Positions 29,220 to 51,870 of a stretch of DNA of 54,228 bases are shown in pieces. Positions within the stretch are counted from its first letter, which is position 1; every line of letters starts with the position of its first letter. Position numbers and translations under genes: made by a program. Under the pieces are notes generated by a model that saw nothing but the letters and a program-made list of their open reading frames with translations, ran no database searches and had not been told where the DNA came from. Source of the DNA: Pseudomonadota bacterium (GTDB taxonomy: Bacteria; Pseudomonadota; Gammaproteobacteria; Steroidobacterales; JBCBZW01); contig JBCBZW010000025.1 of the NCBI GenBank assembly GCA_039815145.1, positions 1-54,228 on the forward strand. Direction: 5' to 3'.

Positions 29220-30323
29220 TCAGGTGGCGGACTGAGACGTCTCGTTCGAGGCGGTGAGTAGCGACTTTCGATAGGCGGCGGGGCTGGTGCCATACGCCGC
29301 GGCGAAGGCGCGGTAGAAGGTCGCCTTGCTCGGGAACCCTGCGTCCAGGGCGAGTTCGAGCGCAGTGCGTTGGGTGTTCGCGGGATCCTGCGCCAGCGCG
29401 CAGAAACTCGCCAGGCGCTGGGCAGTGATGTACTCGCCAACCTCCATCTGATGCTCACTATCGATCGCACGGCGAATCGTATCCGGGGCGAGCCCGGTCT
29501 GCTCGGAGAAGGCCTGCAGCGTGAACTCGGGATCCAGATGGGGTTGGCGCTCGGCCAACAGCGCGACGACCTGCCTCGTCTCCTTGGCGTTGGCGGACGC
29601 TGGCGGCGAGCTCGGCGGCGGGCGGTTCAACGCATCCGGATGGCTCAACACGTAGTAGCCGAAGAAGAAGATCACCCCGACGCTCACCAGTGCGCCCAGG
29701 GTATCCGCATCCCCCAAGGGGGCGTAGCCGATCACCTGCGCGAGCAGTGCGGCGTAGCTCAAGAACACGGCGAACAACACCGCTCCCAGCCAACTCAGCA
29801 GGTGGCGCAGGCGGGGACGCTCGCGGCGTTTGCTGCTTCGCAGACGCCCAAGCAGCAAGCACACGCTTATCGCGCCGTAGGTCGCGAAGCTAAGCGACTT
29901 GAGCAACACGAGGGCGACGACTGCAGTGCCCAACTGCGGGTGCGCGATGCCGATTGAGTGCTCCCCCGCACGCCCAAGGAGAACCGCCACGGCCAACGCA
30001 GCGCACGCGAGGGGAACGAAGTGCAGGGCGACGTGCCTCGGGCGTCCACTCCCCACCGGCGCGATCGCGGCGCGAACAAACTGGTACAAGGCAGGCGGCA
30101 GGGCGAACTCCAACACCAACCCGAGCGGCCAGTCGCGGCCGGCTTCGGAGATGTCCAGCAACTCGCCGAACAGCATCGCCCCCAGGAAGCCATTGAGCAC
30201 GGCCAACCACCGCGCAGCCTCGCCGTTGCGCGTGCGCAGGGTGAGCAGGGCGACCGTGAGGAAAGCGGCCTGAGCGACGCCTGCAGCGAGCGCCCAAGCG
30301 AGTACGTCAGTGGAGAGACTCAT
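29220..30323 (-). CDS. Membrane-bound AraC-family transcriptional regulator
   Basis: 367 aa from ATG 30323 (a frame from 30371 lacks a ribosome site). The first 230 residues hold about seven transmembrane helices, from LAWALAAGVAQAAFLTVALL to LGALVSVGVIFFFGYYVL. A linker and a C-terminal AraC DNA-binding domain follow: FSEQTGLAPDTIRRAID is the first helix-turn-helix, and ALELALDAGFPSKATFYRAF, then YGTSPAAYRKS, is the second. Such regulators sense a membrane or extracellular signal and act on DNA at the membrane. The hydrolase gene 63 bp downstream on the same strand is the simplest target. A divergent target is not available, since the next upstream gene is also on this strand. Confidence 0.87.
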   Translation of the reverse strand: MSLSTDVLAWALAAGVAQAAFLTVALLTLRTRNGEAARWLAVLNGFLGAMLFGELLDISEAGRDWPLGLVLEFALPPALYQFVRAAIAPVGSGRPRHVALHFVPLACAALAVAVLLGRAGEHSIGIAHPQLGTAVVALVLLKSLSFATYGAISVCLLLGRLRSSKRRERPRLRHLLSWLGAVLFAVFLSYAALLAQVIGYAPLGDADTLGALVSVGVIFFFGYYVLSHPDALNRPPPSSPPASANAKETRQVVALLAERQPHLDPEFTLQAFSEQTGLAPDTIRRAIDSEHQMEVGEYITAQRLASFCALAQDPANTQRTALELALDAGFPSKATFYRAFAAAYGTSPAAYRKSLLTASNETSQSAT

Positions 30324-30418
30324 CGTGCACGGCCGATCCTCGAGGATCGCCCAGCGTACCTGTCGGCACACTACCTCGGCGTCTCAGGAACGGCCCTGAG
30401 ACGTTCCAAGCGTCTGTC

Positions 30419-36838: not shown

Positions 36839-36876
36839 AAAAAGGTGGAGGCAAGGGCAGGGAGACCCTTGCCTCC
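36839..36876 (-). terminator. Intrinsic terminator of small RNA copy 1
   Basis: On the minus strand GGAGGCAAGGG pairs with CCCTTGCCTCC (11 bp, loop TCTCCCTG), followed by ACC and a run of five T (plus-strand A-tract 36839-36843). The stem differs from copies 2 and 3 by paired changes (CA/TG in place of TG/CA). Confidence 0.88.
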
Positions 36877-37014
36877 GTACTAGGGACCACTTCAGTTACG
36901 AAGCTCCTCTGGGGAGCAGGTGGCCTGGCTGATTTTGCGAGCGAGGTCCTCGCACTTTCGTGCAAGTAATTCGGTTAGCTAGGCTGTATATCTTTCTTGT
37001 AGAAAAGCTTCGTG
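36839..37014 (-). ncRNA. Structured small RNA, copy 1 of a three-copy family
   Basis: About 176 nt, minus strand, ending in an intrinsic terminator. From 5' to 3': a closing stem of 13 pairs formed by 37001-37013 with 36898-36910 (two G-U pairs); the core GCCTAGCTAACNGAATTACT (shared by all copies, 36965-36984); a 7-bp hairpin CTTGCAC-GAAA-GTGCGAG at 36949-36966 with a GNRA loop; the invariant linker TGAAGTGGTCCCTAGTA at 36878-36894; and the terminator stem at 36847-36876. The other two copies keep the same structure with different bases in the stems, which supports a real RNA. No open frame of note lies within it. The 5' end is inferred from the promoter position. I do not recognise the family. 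Confidence 0.8.
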
Positions 37015-37020
37015 GGGATG

Positions 37021-37157
37021 ATTGGAGCGCAACCGCGCAGCCCTGACAAGCACCTCACGACAATCCACCTCCGCTACGTCACTACTGATACATCTGCTCT
37101 CAATTGCGATCGCCAGCGGCAAGCATCGGGGGCTCGGCGCACCGCAATATGCGCAAA
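37021..37157 (-). promoter_or_regulatory. Promoter and upstream elements of small RNA copy 1
   Basis: On the minus strand: -35 TTGTCA (37044-37049), 17-bp spacer, -10 TCCAAT (37021-37026). The upstream block ATTGAGAGCAGATGTATCA lies at 37086-37104 and the block TTTGCGCA at 37150-37157. The distances between these blocks are the same in all three copies, to the base. Weak -10 hexamer plus conserved upstream blocks suggests activator dependence. Confidence 0.7.
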
Positions 37158-37296
37158 CTCACCCCTACCCTCCCGCCCAGCGGCCTCGCCCGGCCGTCTT
37201 TCGAACCATCGTTTCTCGAACCGGTCCATCTGCTAGCGCCTTGGCCACGCGTCGCTTCTCGCGGCGTGGGTGGGCGGTCCCTGGAGCGAGGCGGAC

Positions 37297-38055
37297 ATGT
37301 TTAGGAAGAGGCGACGAGGACCTCGGGAAGCGACCGTGCGCCTGGCCCTGGCCTGCGTGGGGGCAGCCACCGTCACGGCGGCGCTGCTCCTCGCCATGCT
37401 CGCTCTGATCCGAAAGGACGCTTCGGTTTCTGTCGAAGCTGACGCGCGCAACCCGACGCTGCTGTTCTACCGACGTGCTACCACCCCCGAGGCAACGTCC
37501 GAGCGACGACGTGACGAGATCCGATCAGCCGCCGTGACCGCGAAGGCGCCACCCTCCAGTGCTCCGACCCTCGGCGCCGACCTCGCCGTAGCACCCCCCT
37601 CGGCACCCGCCATCGACGCTGAGCCGATCGCCCCGCGATCGATCGTCGTGCCAGCCGGGCCACCGGCGCTGCCGAGCGTTCGCCGCGCCGAACCATCGGT
37701 CCCGGCGGACTGGGATGCCATCGCCAGCGAGGTCGTGCGTGGCGCTGATGCGCGAGATCGGGCAGAGCGCCCTTCGCACTTCTCGGGCCGACCTCAGGAG
37801 GGCCCGGTGATTCCCCTGCAGGCTCCCCCAGCGAGACGACGGCGGGGCGATATCCCCGAGTCGTACACCAACGCCTACGGGGAGGTGGAAATCCAGGTCA
37901 CCCCGTACTGTACGGCTCGCCAGCAACGTCCGATCGAAGTGCTCGACTCGATCGACACCTTACCGGCGATCATCCACTGCAAGCCCGAACCCAGCACCTT
38001 CGAACTGCCGGAGGAAATCCTCCGCCGAGCCAAACGATCACGCACAACCCCGTAA
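37297..38055 (+). CDS. Predicted membrane-anchored protein of unknown function between small RNA copies 1 and 2
   Basis: 252 aa from ATG 37297, with GAGG 6 bp upstream; GTG 37270 is an alternative. A basic N-terminus (FRKRRRGPREATVR) precedes one transmembrane helix (LALACVGAATVTAALLLAML), giving an inner-membrane protein with the bulk in the periplasm. The middle is Pro/Ala-rich and probably disordered. The C-terminal 60 residues look ordered, with two cysteines (VTPYCTARQ and AIIHCKPEP). I recognise no family. It is transcribed opposite to the RNA genes that flank it, and it starts 140 bp beyond the copy 1 promoter blocks. Confidence 0.6.
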   Translation: MFRKRRRGPREATVRLALACVGAATVTAALLLAMLALIRKDASVSVEADARNPTLLFYRRATTPEATSERRRDEIRSAAVTAKAPPSSAPTLGADLAVAPPSAPAIDAEPIAPRSIVVPAGPPALPSVRRAEPSVPADWDAIASEVVRGADARDRAERPSHFSGRPQEGPVIPLQAPPARRRRGDIPESYTNAYGEVEIQVTPYCTARQQRPIEVLDSIDTLPAIIHCKPEPSTFELPEEILRRAKRSRTTP

Positions 38056-38089
38056 AGCACGGGCATGGCGATGAGGTTGAGGTGCGGGG

Positions 38090-38126
38090 AAAAAAGTGGA
38101 GGTGAGGGCGGGGAACCCTCACCTCC
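38090..38126 (-). terminator. Intrinsic terminator of small RNA copy 2
   Basis: Minus strand: GGAGGTGAGGG pairs with CCCTCACCTCC (11 bp, loop TTCCCCG), followed by AC and six T residues (plus-strand A-tract 38090-38095). Confidence 0.9.
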
Positions 38127-38272
38127 CAAGTACTAGGGACCACTTCAATGTGCGAAACGCCTCTTTGGGAGCAACGGACCTGAGCTAGTTTGCGAGCGAG
38201 TTCCTCGCATTCTCATGCGAGTAATTCGGTTAGCTAGGCTCTCTGACGAGAGATTGGCAAAGGCGTTTCGCG
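38090..38272 (-). ncRNA. Structured small RNA, copy 2 of a three-copy family
   Basis: About 183 nt, minus strand. The closing stem is GCGAAACGCCT (38261-38271) with AGGCGTTTCGC (38152-38162), 11 perfect pairs and quite different in sequence from copies 1 and 3. The core GCCTAGCTAACCGAATTACT is at 38221-38240. The internal hairpin is CTCGCAT-GAGA-ATGCGAG (38204-38221), with two positions changed relative to copies 1 and 3 while pairing and the GNRA loop are kept. The invariant linker is at 38131-38147 and the terminator stem at 38098-38126. This copy is the most diverged and gives the best covariation evidence. The 5' end is inferred. Confidence 0.82.
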
Positions 38273-38278
38273 GGATTG

Positions 38279-38415
38279 ATTTGAGCGCAGCAACCCTGTG
38301 GTGACAAGCAGGAGTGCGAAATAATCGCGCGCCGCACGACGGCTGCTACTTCTGCTCTCAATCGCACCCTCGCGGCGGCTCATCACTCATCCGCACTCGC
38401 GCGAGTTTGCGCAAA
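38279..38415 (-). promoter_or_regulatory. Promoter and upstream elements of small RNA copy 2
   Basis: Minus strand: -35 TTGTCA (38302-38307), 17-bp spacer, -10 TCAAAT (38279-38284). The upstream block ATTGAGAGCAGAAGTAGCA is at 38344-38362, and TTTGCGCA, here part of the palindrome TTTGCGCAAA, at 38408-38415. Spacing is identical to copies 1 and 3, although the DNA in between has diverged. Confidence 0.72.
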
Positions 38416-38510
38416 AGGGCGCTCACAAAGGCGAGCGCTTGGCGAATGCGACGGCACAACGCGAGCAGCCCGAGCGAACGAAATCGCTCAGGCAGAGGGG
38501 CTACAAGGGG

Positions 38511-38550
38511 AAGAAAAAGTGGAGGTGAGGTCAGGGAGATCCTCACCTCC
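38511..38550 (-). terminator. Intrinsic terminator of small RNA copy 3
   Basis: Minus strand: GGAGGTGAGG pairs with CCTCACCTCC (10 bp, loop ATCTCCCTGA), followed by AC and five T residues (plus-strand A-tract 38514-38518). Confidence 0.9.
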
Positions 38551-38688
38551 ATACTAGGGACCACTTCATTACGTAGCTTTTCGACTTAAGCCTGTGGCCT
38601 GGCTGATTTGCGAGCGAGGTCCTCGCACTTTCGTGCAAGTAATTCTGTTAGCTAGGCTCATTTAAGAGCTTGGCGGAAAAGCTTCGCG
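38511..38688 (-). ncRNA. Structured small RNA, copy 3 of a three-copy family
   Basis: About 178 nt, minus strand. The closing stem is GCGAAGCTTTTC (38676-38687) with GAAAAGCTACGT (38571-38582): 12 positions, one mismatch and one G-U. The core GCCTAGCTAACAGAATTACT is at 38639-38658, the hairpin CTTGCAC-GAAA-GTGCGAG at 38622-38639, the invariant linker at 38552-38568 and the terminator stem at 38521-38550. It is closer to copy 1 than to copy 2. It lies downstream of, and in the same direction as, the DUF5666 gene, but its own promoter and the 178-bp gap to that gene's stop codon argue for separate transcription. The 5' end is inferred. Confidence 0.82.
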
Positions 38689-38694
38689 GGAGTG

Positions 38695-38831
38695 ATTGGA
38701 GCGCAACGTCCAGGGACTGACAAGCGCTCGCGGGGAATAATCGTGCCTGGCCGCACGGGTGATACATCTGCTCTCAATGGTGCCCCCAGAGCGCCAGGAG
38801 TGGGATCCCCAGAGCGCCGCGCGTGCGCAAA
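38695..38831 (-). promoter_or_regulatory. Promoter and upstream elements of small RNA copy 3
   Basis: Minus strand: -35 TTGTCA (38718-38723), 17-bp spacer, -10 TCCAAT (38695-38700). The upstream block ATTGAGAGCAGATGTATCA is at 38760-38778 and TTTGCGCA at 38824-38831. The span from the outer edge of the middle block to the inner edge of the -35 is 61 bp in every copy, and the step from the middle block to TTTGCGCA is 46 bp in every copy. Confidence 0.72.
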
Positions 38832-38865: not shown

Positions 38866-39879
38866 CTAGCGGGCGACCGCGCCGACGCCGTCCTGCTCGA
38901 TGCTGGAAGGCTCACCGATACGCACGTGGCGAGCTCTCACCAGGCGCCCGTACTCGTCGTACTCGCCCTCCACCTCGATCAGGCGGCCGGCGATCACATC
39001 GTCGAAGGAGCCACCGATGAAGACAGTCTTCTCGGTAAGCTCGATCGGCGTGCCGTCCACCTCGAAGCGGCCCACCAGCGGCTTCACGTCGGTCACCAGG
39101 CCCTCGATGTCGATCTCCTGCAGGGGTTCGCCACGCAGACCGCGGTCTTCGCGGCTCACGCCGATGGCCTTCAGCACCGGACGCTGCAACACGCCACGCA
39201 CCTCCACCCAATCGCCGCGACGCGGCTTGAAGGGACCGAAGCCGGTGACCACCGCGCGGGAGAAGTCGACGAGCTGATCGCCGATCACCAGGTGATCACC
39301 GCGCACGGCCACCACTTCGCCGGTGACCTCGAAGGCACCCGCCGGGGCGGGGTCGATGCGGGTGGCGAGCAGACGGCCGCTGAGCCCTGCGTAGCCGCTC
39401 ACCTCGATCCGCTGGTTCAGCTGAAAACGGGAGAAGCCGTTGCCGAGCTCCGGCGAAATCCGGGTGCGTCGGTTCACCGTGATCAGCTGGCCGAGCACCG
39501 TGAGCTGAGCGGTGCCATCACCGTTGATACGGATCTGGTCGATCGGCCCCTGAACTGCATCGCGGAAGGTCACGAGCCCCACCGTCGGCAGGGTCTCGGG
39601 GCCGGTGCTCGCGTGCGTGTACACGATGTCACGCAGTTCCACCAGCTGCCCCTGACGCAGCTCCGAGGCCGCACCTGGAACGCCGTCGATGACGATTTTC
39701 GCCTGACTTACGTCGTAATCCACACCTGCCACCCGGAGCGTTCCGATATCTCGGATATGCCCGTTGGCCACGATACCGCGTGCCACGCCTCCTCGGTCGA
39801 TCGCCGCCACCGCTATCGCCGCCACGGCGAGTAGTAGGGGCAGTGCCAACCAACGCATGGCAACGTCCTTGTTATTCAT
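38866..39879 (-). CDS. Exported DUF5666 domain-containing protein
   Basis: 337 aa from ATG 39879, with GGAGAG upstream; a longer frame to 40035 covers part of the next gene. A signal peptide or anchor (RWLALPLLLAVAAIAVAAI) precedes a series of small beta-barrel, OB-like repeats typical of DUF5666: GPIDQIRINGDGTAQLTVLG, LNQRIEVSGYAGLSGRLLAT, TGEVVAVRGDHLVIGDQLV and RLIEVEGEYDEYGRLVRA. Function is unknown; the repeats resemble nucleic-acid- or ligand-binding barrels, but export argues for an envelope role. It lies 43 bp after the DUF6502 gene on the same strand, a pairing I know from other proteobacteria. Confidence 0.8.
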   Translation of the reverse strand: MNNKDVAMRWLALPLLLAVAAIAVAAIDRGGVARGIVANGHIRDIGTLRVAGVDYDVSQAKIVIDGVPGAASELRQGQLVELRDIVYTHASTGPETLPTVGLVTFRDAVQGPIDQIRINGDGTAQLTVLGQLITVNRRTRISPELGNGFSRFQLNQRIEVSGYAGLSGRLLATRIDPAPAGAFEVTGEVVAVRGDHLVIGDQLVDFSRAVVTGFGPFKPRRGDWVEVRGVLQRPVLKAIGVSREDRGLRGEPLQEIDIEGLVTDVKPLVGRFEVDGTPIELTEKTVFIGGSFDDVIAGRLIEVEGEYDEYGRLVRARHVRIGEPSSIEQDGVGAVAR

Positions 39880-39922
39880 GCATCTCTCCAGTGTATTCGT
39901 GTCGTGTGGTCCGCCCATTGAC

Positions 39923-40774
39923 CTATTGCTCTTGTTGTACTGGTTGCGCAGCAGCCTGCGTGGGCTGCTCGTCGATAATCGTGTGAATCTCGTAGGCGCC
40001 GGCGCCGATGCGTACGCTCTCTTCGTTTGCATCATTCGAATTCTCGTGTGCGATCAGCCAGGCGTCTACGTCCTCTAAGAATGTCTGAGCCCGCTCTTCG
40101 AGAAACGCGCGGAAGGCCGGTGCGTGCTTGAGCGGAATCTCCGCACTCCAGGCACGACCTTCGAAACGACTCTGCGCGGGATCTTCGCGGTAAATGTTGT
40201 GGCGTACGGTAGTACCCAGATCCGCCAGCACCAGGCCCGCACGCTCGATCGCATGGGGGTCGGTGGATTCCGGCTGGAAGTAGCGCGTGAGCGGACGCAG
40301 AGCGCCGTCATCCTCACGCTTGACCGCGCCCACGGACATCAGTTCCTTCAGCATCGCCGTCAGGGGAATATCCGCCCCGCTGTAGCGCTTGTAGAGCGAT
40401 GTGAAGCTGAGTTCGCCCTCCATCGGGAGCGTCAGAGGACCGCCCTGCTCATCCAGGAATGCCTCGTCCGTGTGCCACCCCATCAGCACCCGTGCAGCGC
40501 TGTGCACACGGTCGCCCGTGGGAGACTCCTCACCGGCCAGGATGTCGCGCTGGCGACTCGCGTCGCGACGGGTCAAGCCGGTCAACATGGCGACGCGCGA
40601 TATATTCGTGGGACGCCCGTCGATACCAAACTCCTTCATGGCCACGTCCACGTAGGCCAGCCGCAGCAGATCTGCGAACTGTCGAAACGTGATGCCCGAC
40701 CGCAAGGTGATACTCACGATCGGACGCAACATGCGCCGAACGAAGGTACCGATTGAGGAGCTGATATCTGCCAC
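39923..40774 (-). CDS. DUF6502 family protein
   Basis: 283 aa from GTG 40774, with AAAGGA 4 bp upstream. Starting from an earlier codon would add a leader unlike the family. The N-terminal part resembles a winged-helix pair (LRSGITFRQFADLLRLAYVD, then VAMLTGLTRRDASRQRDIL), so DNA binding or a regulatory role is possible. Other blocks are RVLMGWHTDEAFLDEQG and MEGELSFTSLYKRYSGADIP. I assign it to DUF6502, which has no known function. The C-terminus is low-complexity (QAAAQPVQQEQ). It forms a two-gene unit with the DUF5666 gene. Confidence 0.75.
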   Translation of the reverse strand: MADISSSIGTFVRRMLRPIVSITLRSGITFRQFADLLRLAYVDVAMKEFGIDGRPTNISRVAMLTGLTRRDASRQRDILAGEESPTGDRVHSAARVLMGWHTDEAFLDEQGGPLTLPMEGELSFTSLYKRYSGADIPLTAMLKELMSVGAVKREDDGALRPLTRYFQPESTDPHAIERAGLVLADLGTTVRHNIYREDPAQSRFEGRAWSAEIPLKHAPAFRAFLEERAQTFLEDVDAWLIAHENSNDANEESVRIGAGAYEIHTIIDEQPTQAAAQPVQQEQ

Positions 40775-41075
40775 TGTGTCCTTTGGTATCAATTGTTGTC
40801 CGACACATCGGGGCCCGTAGGATGCCCCAGGCCCGTGCGGAATTTCAAAACGCCGCTGCTGAGCGACTACGAAGCCACCCGCGGCCGCCCACATGATTAA
40901 TAACTCAATGATTTAGATCACAATTCTGACGTGAGACATATTGACTCAAATGCACCCGGCGGGCAGCCAGCGCGGTGCGGCGCAGAAAACGGCAGCAGAC
41001 AAGACCTAATGGGAGGGCGGCGCTAACCAGTGCCGCACCACCTGATTCGATGACGTTCGAGAAGGAGATTGATGG
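40775..41075. promoter_or_regulatory. Divergent intergenic region with a CRP/FNR-like dyad
   Basis: No gene is visible in these 301 bp between the DUF6502 and MAPEG starts. Positions 40890-40955 are AT-rich and contain ATGATTTAGATCACA (40908-40922), an imperfect dyad. It matches the FNR pattern (TTGAT-N4-ATCAA) at eight of ten positions and also resembles a CRP half-site (AGATCACA). Such a site could control either gene. It is a pattern match only. Confidence 0.35.
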
Positions 41076-47024: not shown

Positions 47025-49358
47025 TTACGGGAGCGGCGCTATTTCTCCGGCTGCTTCCATGCGAGCCAGGTGGGCCCGCTGCTCGGCGAGGTCGGCCAGT
47101 ATTTCGTGGTTGATGGCCTGACCCTCGGGCATCGCCAGGAGCGACTCCGGCACCATCCGATGCTTGGAAAGGTCCAGGCGGCCGCCGATCGCACGCCACT
47201 CGCGCACGCTCTCCAGCGCTCTCTCTTCGTTGCCCATGGCCATGTGCAGCCAGGTATCCAGGGTTTGGATGCCGCTCCAGCGATGACGGCTGGTCGCTGG
47301 CAGCGCCTCGAGGATCTTCGCCGTCAACGGCGCCGCCTGGTCGCCCCGGCCGGCCAGGTGCAGGGCGGCCGCGTACACCAGGGCCAGGTGGTAGCGGTCA
47401 GGGATACTCCCCACGTCTGAGCCGCCCAGCAGGAATTCCGGATAGTGGGTCTCCACGCGCTCGATCGCGCGCTCGGGATCTCCCGCCGCAAGATCGAACC
47501 CGCAGAGCATCACGTCGACCCAGCGTAGTTGGCCCGAGTAACGTTCCCCCATCTCCTCGAGCAGCGCCTGGAGCGGTTCGTCCTCGCCGCGTATCAGGTG
47601 GATCCTGATCCGTGCGACATCCGCTTCCGCCCCCGTCGGAGACGCTGCGAGAAACAACTCGAAGAAGCGCACGGCCTCATCGGGAACCCCCAGGTCATCG
47701 TAAGCCGTTGCGAGGTTCAAGAAGTTGAACGCCGTGTCCGGGTCCAGGGCATAGAATCGTCGGTAGGCTTTGATCGCCTCGTCGTGGCGATAGAGCTTCA
47801 AGAAGTACAGGTCGCCAGCCACGCGATAGGTCTCGGCATACCCGGGTGCACTGGCGATGGCAGCGTTGAATTCCTCGAGCGCCTCATCAAAGCGTTCCAG
47901 CTCGACCTTCACCCACCCGGCGATCGACAGCGTGATCGGATTCTGTGGATCCACCGCTTTGACGTTGGCCAGAAGCGCGAGCGCCGACTCGTGTCGACGC
48001 AGCCAGTTGCTCTGGAAGAAGGCGTACATGCGCGCCGCGTCGGCATTTCCCGGGTTGAGCTCGAGCGCCCGTTCGTACGCTGACTGCGCCGCGTCGCGAT
48101 TCCCCTTGTCGCGTTCGAGGAGTGCCAGAGCCTCGTAGGCTTCGCTGAGCGCGGGGTCCAGGCTCAAGGCCTTTCTCACTGCCACTTCGGCAAGTACCAG
48201 GTTCTCCTTTAGGGGCAGGCTGCTGTAGGTGCGTTGTTCCAGCAACGCCAGGCCCAGCTGGGCATGGGCTTCGGCGAACTCCGGATCGAGGCGCACCGCT
48301 TCTCGATAGTGCTCCACCGCCTCGCCGAACCCTTTCGTGGTAGTCAACGCGGCACTGACACGACCGCGGAAGAAGGCGTCCAGCGCCGCCGTGCTCTGGG
48401 TGGGGGCCTCGGCGATGTCCTGTTGTTCCTCCTGAGACAACACGGCGCGCAATGTGGTGGCCACGGCGAGGGTGATCTCGCTCTGGATGGCAAAGACGTT
48501 CTCGGCGTTCAGTTCCCGCGTGTAGGTCTCCGCCCAGATGTGCTCGTCGGTCGCCGCATCGATCATCTGCACGTTGATGCGAATGCTGTCGGCGGCGCGC
48601 TGTACACCCCCTTCAATGATGAGAGCTGCACCAAGTTCCCTGCCGATCGTGGGCATGCTCTTGTTGCTGCCGCGATAGGCCATCATGGAGGTGCGGGATA
48701 TCGCGGCGAGGCCGCTGATCTTGGTGACCTGCGTGATGAGATCATCGTGGAACCCATCGACGAAGAACGCATCTTCCTCCACCTGGCTGTGGTTCACGAA
48801 GGGCAGGATCGCGATGGTGTTCGGGCGCAGTTCGCCCGGCTCCGGACCGTTTGGCCTGACGTCTGCGGTGGGCGTGGTGGGCTGGCTCGAGGTGGGCTCT
48901 TCCGCCAGCCAAAGGAACGCGGCCGCTACTGCAGCAACCAGTGTCCCTAGGGCAAGGTACGGTCGCCACTTATGTAACGCGGGGGTTGGGGGCGAATCGG
49001 CTGGTGCTGCCTCGTTCGAGGCCGCCCCGGCCGGACTTGGCGCTGCCTGAGTCTCGCGTACCTCACCGACGAACTGATAGCCGCGACCGCGCAGGGTTCT
49101 GATGTACTTCTGCTGCTCACCGTTGTCGCCAAGCACGGCCCGCGCCAGCTTGATTTCGTTGCTCAGCACGTTGTCCGAGACGACGCGCCCAGACCAGAGT
49201 TCGTTGAACAGCTCCTCGCGCGTGACCAGGCGATCACGGTGCTGCATCAGAAAGACCAGCAGGTCGAAAACCTTAGGCGTTAACGAAACCGCCTCTCCCT
49301 CGCGCGTCAGTGAGAAGCTGTTGGTGTCGAACTCCAGCCCCGCACACTGGAAAATCAT
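47025..49358 (-). CDS. CadC-like winged-helix transmembrane regulator with TolB-like and TPR domains (copy A)
   Basis: 777 aa from ATG 49358, where the family opening MIFQCAGLEFDTNSF begins; an upstream frame adds unrelated residues. Residues 1-100 are an OmpR/CadC-type winged helix (LTPKVFDLLVFLMQHRDRLV, VSDNVLSNEIKLARAVLGD, LRGRGYQFVGEV). One helix near 135 (YLALGTLVAAVAAAFLWLA) crosses the membrane. Next comes a TolB-N/adenylate-cyclase-associated region (TIAILPFVNHS, FVDGFHDDLI, ISRTSMMAYRG), and then TPR repeats to the end. It should sense a periplasmic signal and bind DNA from the membrane. It is divergent from a paralogue at 49564 that is alike over its whole length. Confidence 0.88.
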   Translation of the reverse strand: MIFQCAGLEFDTNSFSLTREGEAVSLTPKVFDLLVFLMQHRDRLVTREELFNELWSGRVVSDNVLSNEIKLARAVLGDNGEQQKYIRTLRGRGYQFVGEVRETQAAPSPAGAASNEAAPADSPPTPALHKWRPYLALGTLVAAVAAAFLWLAEEPTSSQPTTPTADVRPNGPEPGELRPNTIAILPFVNHSQVEEDAFFVDGFHDDLITQVTKISGLAAISRTSMMAYRGSNKSMPTIGRELGAALIIEGGVQRAADSIRINVQMIDAATDEHIWAETYTRELNAENVFAIQSEITLAVATTLRAVLSQEEQQDIAEAPTQSTAALDAFFRGRVSAALTTTKGFGEAVEHYREAVRLDPEFAEAHAQLGLALLEQRTYSSLPLKENLVLAEVAVRKALSLDPALSEAYEALALLERDKGNRDAAQSAYERALELNPGNADAARMYAFFQSNWLRRHESALALLANVKAVDPQNPITLSIAGWVKVELERFDEALEEFNAAIASAPGYAETYRVAGDLYFLKLYRHDEAIKAYRRFYALDPDTAFNFLNLATAYDDLGVPDEAVRFFELFLAASPTGAEADVARIRIHLIRGEDEPLQALLEEMGERYSGQLRWVDVMLCGFDLAAGDPERAIERVETHYPEFLLGGSDVGSIPDRYHLALVYAAALHLAGRGDQAAPLTAKILEALPATSRHRWSGIQTLDTWLHMAMGNEERALESVREWRAIGGRLDLSKHRMVPESLLAMPEGQAINHEILADLAEQRAHLARMEAAGEIAPLP

Positions 49359-49563
49359 CGGTTGCCCACGCGACGTCCTCGCCTTTTTCCAACATGTTGA
49401 CACAAAAGGACTTGCCCGCGGCAGGCGCCAGCGCCATCGACCGGCATGCCCGGATGCGCTGTCCGCCACCGCTTCTCCACCGGGTGCAGGGGGTGGATGA
49501 CTTACTCACGCGATTCTTCTGTGCCACCATCGACAGCTCACCGGGTGCCCCGACAGGTCAACT
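49359..49563. promoter_or_regulatory. Shared divergent promoter region of the two CadC-like genes
   Basis: The 205-bp region separates the two paralogous regulators. It contains a 10-bp direct repeat, CACCGGGTGC, at 49478-49487 and 49539-49548 (61 bp apart, near six helical turns). Each copy is partly self-complementary (CACC/GGTG). These could be binding sites for one or both regulators. Confidence 0.4.
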
Positions 49564-51870
49564 ATGATTTTCCAGTGCTCAGGACTGGAGTTCGACACGG
49601 AGAGCTTCGCCGTAACCCGCGAAGGCGAAGCCGTCCCGGTGCCCCCCAAGGTATTTGACCTACTGATCTTCCTGATGCGTCACCGTGATCGGCTGGTGAC
49701 GCGCCAGGCGCTGTTTGAGGCGCTCTGGGCCGGCCGCGTCGTGTCGGACAACGTGTTGAGCAACGAAATCAAGCTGGCACGTGCCGTCTTGGGCGATGAC
49801 GGCGAGCAACAGCGATTCATCAAGACCGTTCGCGGCCGCGGCTATCAGTTCGTGGGCGAGGTTCGGGAGGTCGAGGCTGCACCAGAGGCGGCCATGGGCA
49901 CCGTGTCGACGCGCGGGCCCGCTGTGCGTCGCGCGTTGCTTGGTGGGTCCGCGCTGCTGCTGGTCCTGGTGCTCGGCGTGCTCTGGCTGAGGGACCCGGT
50001 CGAACCTGCTCCCATGGTTGTGCGTGGCGCTTCTGCGCCAGCGGAACTCCGGCCGAACACCATCGCCATCCTGCCCTTCATGAATCGCAGCGATCTGAAG
50101 GAGGATGCGTACTTCGTCGACGGCTTCCATGACGACCTCATCACGCAGATCGCCAAGATCAGCGGCCTGACCGCGATATCCCGCAGCTCGGTGATGGCCT
50201 ACCGGAGTAGCGATAAGAGTCTGCCCGAAATCGGTGGAGAACTCGGCTCCAGCCTCATCATCGAAGGCGGCGTCCAGCGCGCTGCTGAAAGCGTGCGCAT
50301 CAATGTGCAGATGATCGATGCGGCAACCGACGAGCACCTGTGGGCAGAAACTTATACACGCGAGCTCAATGCGCAAAACGTGTTTGCGATTCAAAGCGAG
50401 ATAGCGCTTGCCGTTGCAGCGAAGCTTCGCACGGTGCTGTCGCTGGAGGATCAACAGAACATCGCCCGGGTGCCTACCGAGAATACTGCAGCGCTGGAGG
50501 CCTTCTTCCGCGGTCGCGTGAGCATGGCGCTCGACACGGGCGAGGCGTTCCGTGTGGCGGTAGAGCATTTTCGCGAGGCCGTCAGGCTTGATCCGGCGTT
50601 TGCCAAAGCCCACGCTCAGCTAGGGTTGACCCTACTCGAACATCGCACCTTTAGCAGTCAGTCACTGCCGCAAAATCTGGTACTTGCTGAGGTCGCGATC
50701 AACAAGGCCTTAAGCCTCGACCCAACACTCAGCGAAGCCTATGAGGCCTTGGCCCTACTCGAGCGAGACAGAGGAAACACAACGGAGGCGAGAGCAGCCT
50801 ACGAGCGGGCGATCGAGCTCAACCCCGGTAACGCCCACGCCATTCGCATGTATGCGTTCTTTCAGAGCGCTTGGCTGGGTGAGCACGAGTCAGCGCGCGC
50901 GCTCCTGGTCAATGCTAAGGCGATCGACCCCCGCAATCCCATCACGTTGGCGATAACGGGCTGGGTGCTGGTTCGCCTCGAGCGCTTTGAGGAAGCGCTG
51001 GCAAACCTCAATACCGCCAGGGAGAACGCCCCGGACTACGCCGAGACCTATCATGTGCTGGGTGATCTGTATTCGCTACATCTGTACGGGCATGACAAGG
51101 CCATAGAGGCCTACGGGCGTTTCTACGCCTTGAACCCGGACACAGTATCCAATCTGTTGTACATCGGAACGGCTTACGACGATCTCGGCATGAGCGAGGA
51201 GGCCGTTCGCTATTTCGAGCGCTACCTCGGTGCTGTGCCAGAGGGGTCCGAGGCTGACGTCGCTCGCATCCGGACATATCTGATTCGTGGTGAGGACCAA
51301 CAGCTCGAGGCCTTGCTCCAGGATATGGGCGAAAGGTATGGCGGTAACGTTCGGTGGGTTGATGTGATGCTGAGCACCTTCGACCTTGCTCGGGGGCAAC
51401 CCGAACGGGTTATCGACCGCGTGGAGCAACACTATCCTGAGTTCCTGCTGGGCGGTGCTGAGATTGCGAGTATCCCGGAGCAGTTTGACCTGGCGTTGGT
51501 CTATGCCACAGCGCTGCATCTCACGGGTGAGGCGGAGCGAGCGATGCCTTTGACTGCCCGAATCCTTGAGCTGATCCCGACGAAGAGTCGCCATCGTTGG
51601 GATGGTGTGATGACCAAGGACACCTGGCTTCACGTGGCCATGGGCGACGAAGAGAGGGCGCTGCAGAGCGTGCGCGACTGGCGTGCCATGGGTGGACTGG
51701 TGGATCTGACCAAGCACCGGATGGTACCGGCATCCCTGTTCGATCATCCGGACTTTCAGGCCATCAACAACGAGGTGCTTGGAGAACTCGCCAAGCAACG
51801 CGCCAATCTGGCTCGCATGCAAGCCGCGGGAGAACTCGCGCCGCTCCCGGAGTTTCGGGCGTCTCGATAA
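49564..51870 (+). CDS. CadC-like winged-helix transmembrane regulator with TolB-like and TPR domains (copy B)
   Basis: 768 aa. Its architecture is the same as copy A: winged helix at residues 1-100 (VPPKVFDLLIFLMRHRDRLV, VSDNVLSNEIKLARAVLGD, VRGRGYQFVGEVREV), a transmembrane helix near 130-150 (LLGGSALLLVLVLGVLWLR), TolB-like segment TIAILPFMNRS and FVDGFHDDLITQIAKISGL, and TPR repeats such as AYEALALLERDRGNTTEARA. Many stretches of the winged helix are identical to copy A, so both may recognise the same DNA. The coding sequence is a little less GC-rich than copy A, which suggests different age or origin. Its start ATG is preceded by ACAGGTCAACT, a weak ribosome site. Confidence 0.88.
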   Translation: MIFQCSGLEFDTESFAVTREGEAVPVPPKVFDLLIFLMRHRDRLVTRQALFEALWAGRVVSDNVLSNEIKLARAVLGDDGEQQRFIKTVRGRGYQFVGEVREVEAAPEAAMGTVSTRGPAVRRALLGGSALLLVLVLGVLWLRDPVEPAPMVVRGASAPAELRPNTIAILPFMNRSDLKEDAYFVDGFHDDLITQIAKISGLTAISRSSVMAYRSSDKSLPEIGGELGSSLIIEGGVQRAAESVRINVQMIDAATDEHLWAETYTRELNAQNVFAIQSEIALAVAAKLRTVLSLEDQQNIARVPTENTAALEAFFRGRVSMALDTGEAFRVAVEHFREAVRLDPAFAKAHAQLGLTLLEHRTFSSQSLPQNLVLAEVAINKALSLDPTLSEAYEALALLERDRGNTTEARAAYERAIELNPGNAHAIRMYAFFQSAWLGEHESARALLVNAKAIDPRNPITLAITGWVLVRLERFEEALANLNTARENAPDYAETYHVLGDLYSLHLYGHDKAIEAYGRFYALNPDTVSNLLYIGTAYDDLGMSEEAVRYFERYLGAVPEGSEADVARIRTYLIRGEDQQLEALLQDMGERYGGNVRWVDVMLSTFDLARGQPERVIDRVEQHYPEFLLGGAEIASIPEQFDLALVYATALHLTGEAERAMPLTARILELIPTKSRHRWDGVMTKDTWLHVAMGDEERALQSVRDWRAMGGLVDLTKHRMVPASLFDHPDFQAINNEVLGELAKQRANLARMQAAGELAPLPEFRASR

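Follow-up and report, generated by a model that had tools for sequence, protein, structure and literature searches.

The multi-copy small RNAs (sRNAs) RsmX/Y/Z of Pseudomonas carry a common upstream activating sequence, the GacA box. In a 54,228-nucleotide stretch of the gammaproteobacterial contig JBCBZW010000025.1 (assembly GCA_039815145.1), hereafter the window, we find three sister RNA genes that, by sequence, likewise have an upstream site common to all copies, as in systems of sibling sRNAs under one activator: each is preceded by a 19-base-pair (bp) block and, farther out, by a box with the core TGCGCA. In Listeria, the aligned promoters of the sister sRNAs LhrC1-5, which are governed by the response regulator LisR, have conserved positions, and substitutions in lhrC5 upstream of -53 (-57 to -59; -72, -74 and -75) impair LisR-dependent induction (PMC4132741). 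The Vibrio sRNAs Qrr1-5 are activated by LuxO with sigma-54 via predicted upstream sites, the rest of their promoter regions being little alike (PMC8043402). Thus, the kind of system to which we assign the locus (cf. LhrC/LisR) is already known; the RNA family and its sites are, as far as tested, new.

The best explanation for the locus, to which we give a probability of about 0.72, is that it comprises sister sRNA genes with promoters of their own and an upstream activator that would cause all three RNAs to be made together. The shared architecture of the three promoters is, on the sequence comparisons below, real and conserved, and control by an activator is most likely. Unlike in RsmX/Y/Z, no GacA-type palindrome (TGTAAG-N6-CTTACA) is found at up to 3 mismatches near the promoters; the window holds three matches at 3 mismatches (4.7 expected), none near the RNAs. 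With LhrC, the locus shares several sister sRNAs with conserved upstream positions, but the LhrC RNAs are five near-identical copies of 111-114 nucleotides in a Gram-positive organism (PMC4132741), whereas here, counted from a putative start, the block lies near -81 and the box near -138, and the RNAs have no Rfam match. In contrast to the Qrr promoters (PMC8043402), both the sequence and the position of the sites are near-rigid here, and no sigma-54 consensus motif is present at the promoters. The tandem arrangement of sister sRNAs recalls PrrF1/2 and OmrA/B, which are pairs (PMC4211561), whereas here there are three copies, with copies 1 and 2 separated by a protein gene of opposite orientation.

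The RNA genes are on the minus strand, so that blocks at higher coordinates are upstream of them (Table 1). The first-pass annotation had placed the blocks at the same distances before all three promoters, and both the coordinates and the spacing in the window bear this out: the layout TGCGCA-45-block-36-TTGTCA-17-TCMAAT is alike in all three copies. In the second genome of the genus (G001; the window's own genome, of 6.0 megabases, is G000), the distance from TGCGCA to the block is 44, 44 and 45 bp and that from the block to TTGTCA is 36, 35 and 36 bp, a variation of at most 1 bp over the six copies. The 19-mer did not occur in any of 100 shuffles of the window. A genome-wide search for it, a check that the first-pass annotation had proposed, returned the three RNA sites only, at up to 3 mismatches. 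With the two variable positions relaxed to W and K, three extra sites appeared in the own genome at 3 mismatches (one for the reversed control) and none in G001 besides its three RNA sites (reversed control, 5). A search of 396 order members, own genome included, for the layout block-36-TTGTCA (up to 3 mismatches) gave three sites in G000, with no fourth, two in G001, and one 3-mismatch site in each of two other genomes (reversed control, 1); a 35-bp spacer combined with the start of the -10 block picked out copy 2 of G001 only, as expected.

Table 1. Features of the three RNA genes and of the DNA upstream of them (window positions; R1, RNA model)
Feature	Position	Strand	Remarks
Structured RNA copy 1, 5' end inferred	36839..37019	-	R1 200.4 bits (model member); compensatory changes; intrinsic terminator by scan
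Structured RNA copy 2, 5' end inferred	38090..38277	-	R1 182.3 bits (model member); intrinsic terminator by scan
Structured RNA copy 3, 5' end inferred	38513..38693	-	R1 196.7 bits (model member); terminator-like hairpin
-10-like TCCAAT, copy 1, within invariant TGCGCTCMAATC	37021..37026	-	N17 spacer in 6/6 copies
-10-like TCAAAT, copy 2	38279..38284	-	17 bp from TTGTCA
-10-like TCCAAT, copy 3	38695..38700	-	17 bp from TTGTCA
-35-like TTGTCA, copy 1	37044..37049	-	GCTTGTCA invariant in 6/6 copies
-35-like TTGTCA, copy 2	38302..38307	-	36 bp from block
-35-like TTGTCA, copy 3	38718..38723	-	36 bp from block
19-bp block, copy 1 (ATTGAGAGCAGATGTATCA)	37086..37104	-	exact; identical in G001 ortholog
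19-bp block, copy 2 (ATTGAGAGCAGAAGTAGCA, two changes)	38344..38362	-	same two-base variant in G001 ortholog
19-bp block, copy 3	38760..38778	-	exact; identical in G001 ortholog
TGCGCA core of distal box, copy 1	37150..37155	.	45 bp from block; invariant in 6/6 copies
TGCGCA core of distal box, copy 2	38408..38413	.	sole copy with full TTTGCGCAAA
TGCGCA core of distal box, copy 3	38824..38829	.	45 bp from block; invariant in 6/6 copies

The blocks have stayed unchanged between the two species, in that each pair of orthologs keeps 19 of 19, 6 of 6, 8 of 8 and 12 of 12 bases in the 19-mer, TGCGCA, GCTTGTCA and TGCGCTCMAATC, respectively, and the peculiarities of copy 2 (the two-base variant of the block and the A in the -10) are common to both. 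The first-pass annotation had named absence of the blocks upstream of homologous RNAs in related genomes as evidence that would count against it; in the one relative that has the RNAs, they are present. Ortholog identity is 58-59% in the 44-45-bp spacers and 56-64% in the 35-36-bp spacers (shuffled, 44-50%), and 46-67% in the 12-bp spacer between the promoter blocks (shuffled, 39-48%). In four neighbouring genes, identity at fourfold degenerate third positions is 51.6-57.1%, and that of the encoded proteins 53.6-90.5%. Hence, to go by the fourfold positions and the long spacers, DNA free of constraint has diverged strongly between the two species, in contrast to the blocks.

As to the distal box, the first-pass annotation had suggested that a second factor perhaps acts on the palindrome TTTGCGCAAA; the palindrome is not supported by the comparison, being complete in a single copy of the six, and the invariant core, TGCGCA, is the part retained by all. 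The longer TTTGCGCA occurs seven times in the window against 1.63 expected, three of these being the occurrences first annotated, and is kept in full by four of the six copies: all three in the window and one of three in the second species. When the 120-bp stretch preceding the block was shuffled with ortholog columns kept together, a 6-mer common to all six copies within 1 bp on either side arose in 0 of 3000 trials (largest, 3). In copy 3 of G001 (L010:6640-6690), TGCGCA can be seen by eye to lie within a long inverted repeat (GCCTCGGGCG..CGCCCGAGGC) directly after a DUF5666 gene, of which the repeat is possibly the terminator.

The three RNA copies, each of about 180 nucleotides, are clear paralogs. 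None of 200 shuffles gave as good a fold as the consensus of the transcripts, in which 8 of 44 pairs show compensatory changes. The strong fold begins just after TCMAAT, as would be expected of transcription starting there. It has a long closing stem that surrounds a domain of high conservation (GCCTAGCTAAC..GAATTA, GCGAGGA..TCGCTCGC). A terminator scan yielded three sites in the region (1.5 expected from shuffles), including those of copies 1 and 2; the site of copy 3 is not in its list, and a hairpin with a T-tract is visible there in the alignment. Thus, each RNA appears to have its own promoter-like pair and terminator hairpin. At the curated score, the window contains no match to Rfam; copies 1 and 2 gave two weak matches in their 3' parts, to ftsZ-DE (22.8 bits; cut-off 72.2) and tfoR (19.6 bits; cut-off 70).

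In the proposed mechanism, each RNA gene would be read from the promoter TTGTCA-N17-TCMAAT, with a start about 7 bp beyond the -10, where the closing stem begins. TTGTCA with its 17-bp spacer is a fair candidate for a -35 hexamer. TCMAAT has a C in place of the A at the second position in all six copies, and a sigma-70 scan that demands A at that position and T at position 6 detected no promoter, which upholds the weak -10 of the first-pass annotation. RNA polymerase alone would therefore open this -10 poorly, and all three RNAs would be made together when an activator is present. A sequence-specific protein, most likely this activator, would occupy the 19-bp block, whose centre is near -81, and TGCGCA near -138 would be bound by another protein or by a second contact. 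An activator that contacts polymerase from an upstream position is often found near -61, -71, -82 or -92, and the position of the block, counted from the presumed start, fits these. Of the fixed helical phase that had been claimed for the blocks, the near-fixed spacing holds but not the phasing, since the two upstream blocks, at 57.5 bp centre to centre (5.5 turns), do not share one face of the helix. A single activator switching on all three RNAs together is the likeliest reading; the transcription start, activation as opposed to repression, and the sharing of one regulator are the parts of it that we infer.

Several observations pull the other way. The spacers retain somewhat more identity than shuffled sequences do, and the conservation rests on a single species comparison, threefold by virtue of the three copies, between two carrier genomes. 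As for a regulator encoded nearby, none was found: an AraC-type gene (29220-30371) has no counterpart in the stretches of G001 read; and DUF6502, whose gene adjoins copy 3, was considered as the dedicated regulator and set aside, since 65 of 97 order members, own genome included, have the family, against 2 of 296 for the RNA. Further, the reverse complement of the first half of the block (TGCTCTCAAT) imperfectly resembles the -10 region, TGCGCTCMAAT, an inverted likeness that would suit a bridging repressor.

Some of the promoter features could also be accounted for by an alternative sigma factor that reads the promoter, with the upstream blocks only modulating its output. We consider this a less likely possibility, and one that is compatible with the activator reading instead of opposed to it. 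The invariant GCTTGTCA-N12-TGCGCTCMAATC lacks the A at the second position of the -10, and its length and conservation exceed what a sigma-70 pair is generally known to require. However, neither of two alternative consensus sequences fits here: that of sigma-54 (TGGCAC-N5-TTGCW, up to 2 mismatches) has 32 matches in the window, where 24.3 would be expected, and none of them falls at the promoters of the RNAs, and the sigma-32 consensus, at the one spacing tried, has no match at them. Moreover, the promoter motif occurs genome-wide at the three RNAs without mismatches and at one further site with 3 mismatches, which is few for a sigma regulon.

The inverted likeness noted above raises the alternative of a repressor with two operators, wherein one protein bound to ATTGAGAGCA in the block and to the inverted TGCGCTCMAAT over the -10 would shut the promoter by a DNA loop. 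The 73.5 bp between the two, or 7.0 turns, would favor such a loop; the likeness itself was noticed post hoc, and its score is reached by 407 and 216 of 20000 shuffles for the two versions of the block (about 1-2%). This arrangement accounts for neither the second half of the block (GATGTATCA) nor TGCGCA, one copy has 1 bp less than the others between block and promoter, and the poor -10 hints at a need for activation; hence, we deem the repressor unlikely.

That the transcripts begin farther upstream, the blocks being conserved elements of the RNA, is very improbable. In a consensus fold of the upstream region GCGCA pairs with TGCGC and TGAGAGCA with TGCTTGTCA, but 79 of 300 column shuffles fold as well, no pair has changed on both sides, the strong fold starts only past TCMAAT, and the aligned stretch upstream of TGCGCA contains no further conserved block. 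With the spacers drifted, the blocks conserved and the upstream fold no better than chance, the comparison indicates that selection maintains the blocks as elements of the DNA. Plain duplication, with the blocks as undiverged remnants of a recent triplication, is scarcely tenable: the three genes are clearly paralogs, but their copy-specific variants are common to both species, placing the copies before the species split, and the ortholog spacers have drifted around unchanged blocks. The contention of the first-pass annotation that these are binding sites rather than leftover duplication is accordingly supported at the level of conservation.

The RNA family itself appears confined to one genus among the genomes sampled. 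Our genome collection represents the taxonomic family by the own genome and G001, and these two, with three genes each, were the carriers among 59 genomes (own plus 58 relatives) searched initially. The model R1, built from the six sequences (three window copies and three from G001), was run against overlapping genome samples drawn at three ranks, 296 from the order, 369 from the class and 398 from the phylum, all with the own genome among them, under stricter filters by which weak matches are lost. Strong matches were restricted to G000 and G001, the latter being matched in the order sample and not in the other two. A weak match in the class sample (G444; 22.5 bits, expectation value (E) 0.04) is missing the greater part of the central domain and was judged chance. 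By R1 there is no fourth copy in the own genome up to E 10, and a search of phages with the region of copy 1 found nothing. Given that the four blocks at near-rigid spacing co-occur in the own genome at these three genes only, one may speculate, with more doubt than confidence, that a genus-specific structured RNA family is paired with a private transcription factor (or a private sigma-factor/activator pair), one regulator serving three RNAs and perhaps nothing else.

A linker preceding the terminator (36877-36894, 38130-38147, 38551-38568) is unpaired in the consensus fold and, as TGAAGTGGTCCCTAGTA on the RNA strand, does not differ among the six copies of the two species. It is likely a segment that binds a target or a protein. 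Its complement, at up to 3 mismatches, is found in the own genome at the RNA genes themselves only (reversed control, 2), and we therefore propose no target. The exact 17-mer of the linker had no match in viral contigs and two in genome contigs, a search from which near kin may be left out; R1 gave 12 bits at one of these and nothing at the other, and both were judged chance.

Among the surrounding genes, a DUF6502-DUF5666 pair (38866-40894) lies beside the array. A DUF5666 neighbour is present at 6 of 30 DUF6502 loci read with flanks of about 1.5 kilobases, two of the loci coming from G000 and G001, and R1 has no match at these six. A stretch resembling the block was seen at one of these 30 (L045), its 3 mismatches lying outside the two variable positions and the stretch itself apparently at the end of the DUF6502 frame; having neither TTGTCA 36 bp on nor an R1 match, it was judged chance. 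No paper naming DUF6502 was found in the literature searched. The protein gene at 37270-38055, on the other strand between copies 1 and 2, has the blocks of copy 1 in its upstream region; it is without a Pfam match and fast-evolving, being 53.6% identical to its G001 counterpart against 86-91% for three neighbours. Of the 25 window proteins compared with G001, 14 were matched in the stretches read and 11 were not, 6 of the latter lying beyond the stretch ends. Two divergent CadC-like genes (47025-49469 and 49564-51870) code for a Trans_reg_C DNA-binding domain with TPR repeats; their lack of a match in G001 is uninformative, as the stretches read stop at base 124000 and the contig has 124183 bases.

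The locus thus supplies a precise and testable promoter architecture for an RNA family absent from Rfam. With spacing that is almost rigid and sites that are nearly missing from the remainder of the genome, the 19-bp block is good bait for finding the regulator. More generally, the system illustrates how a triplicated RNA gene may stay under common control even as its promoter DNA otherwise diverges.
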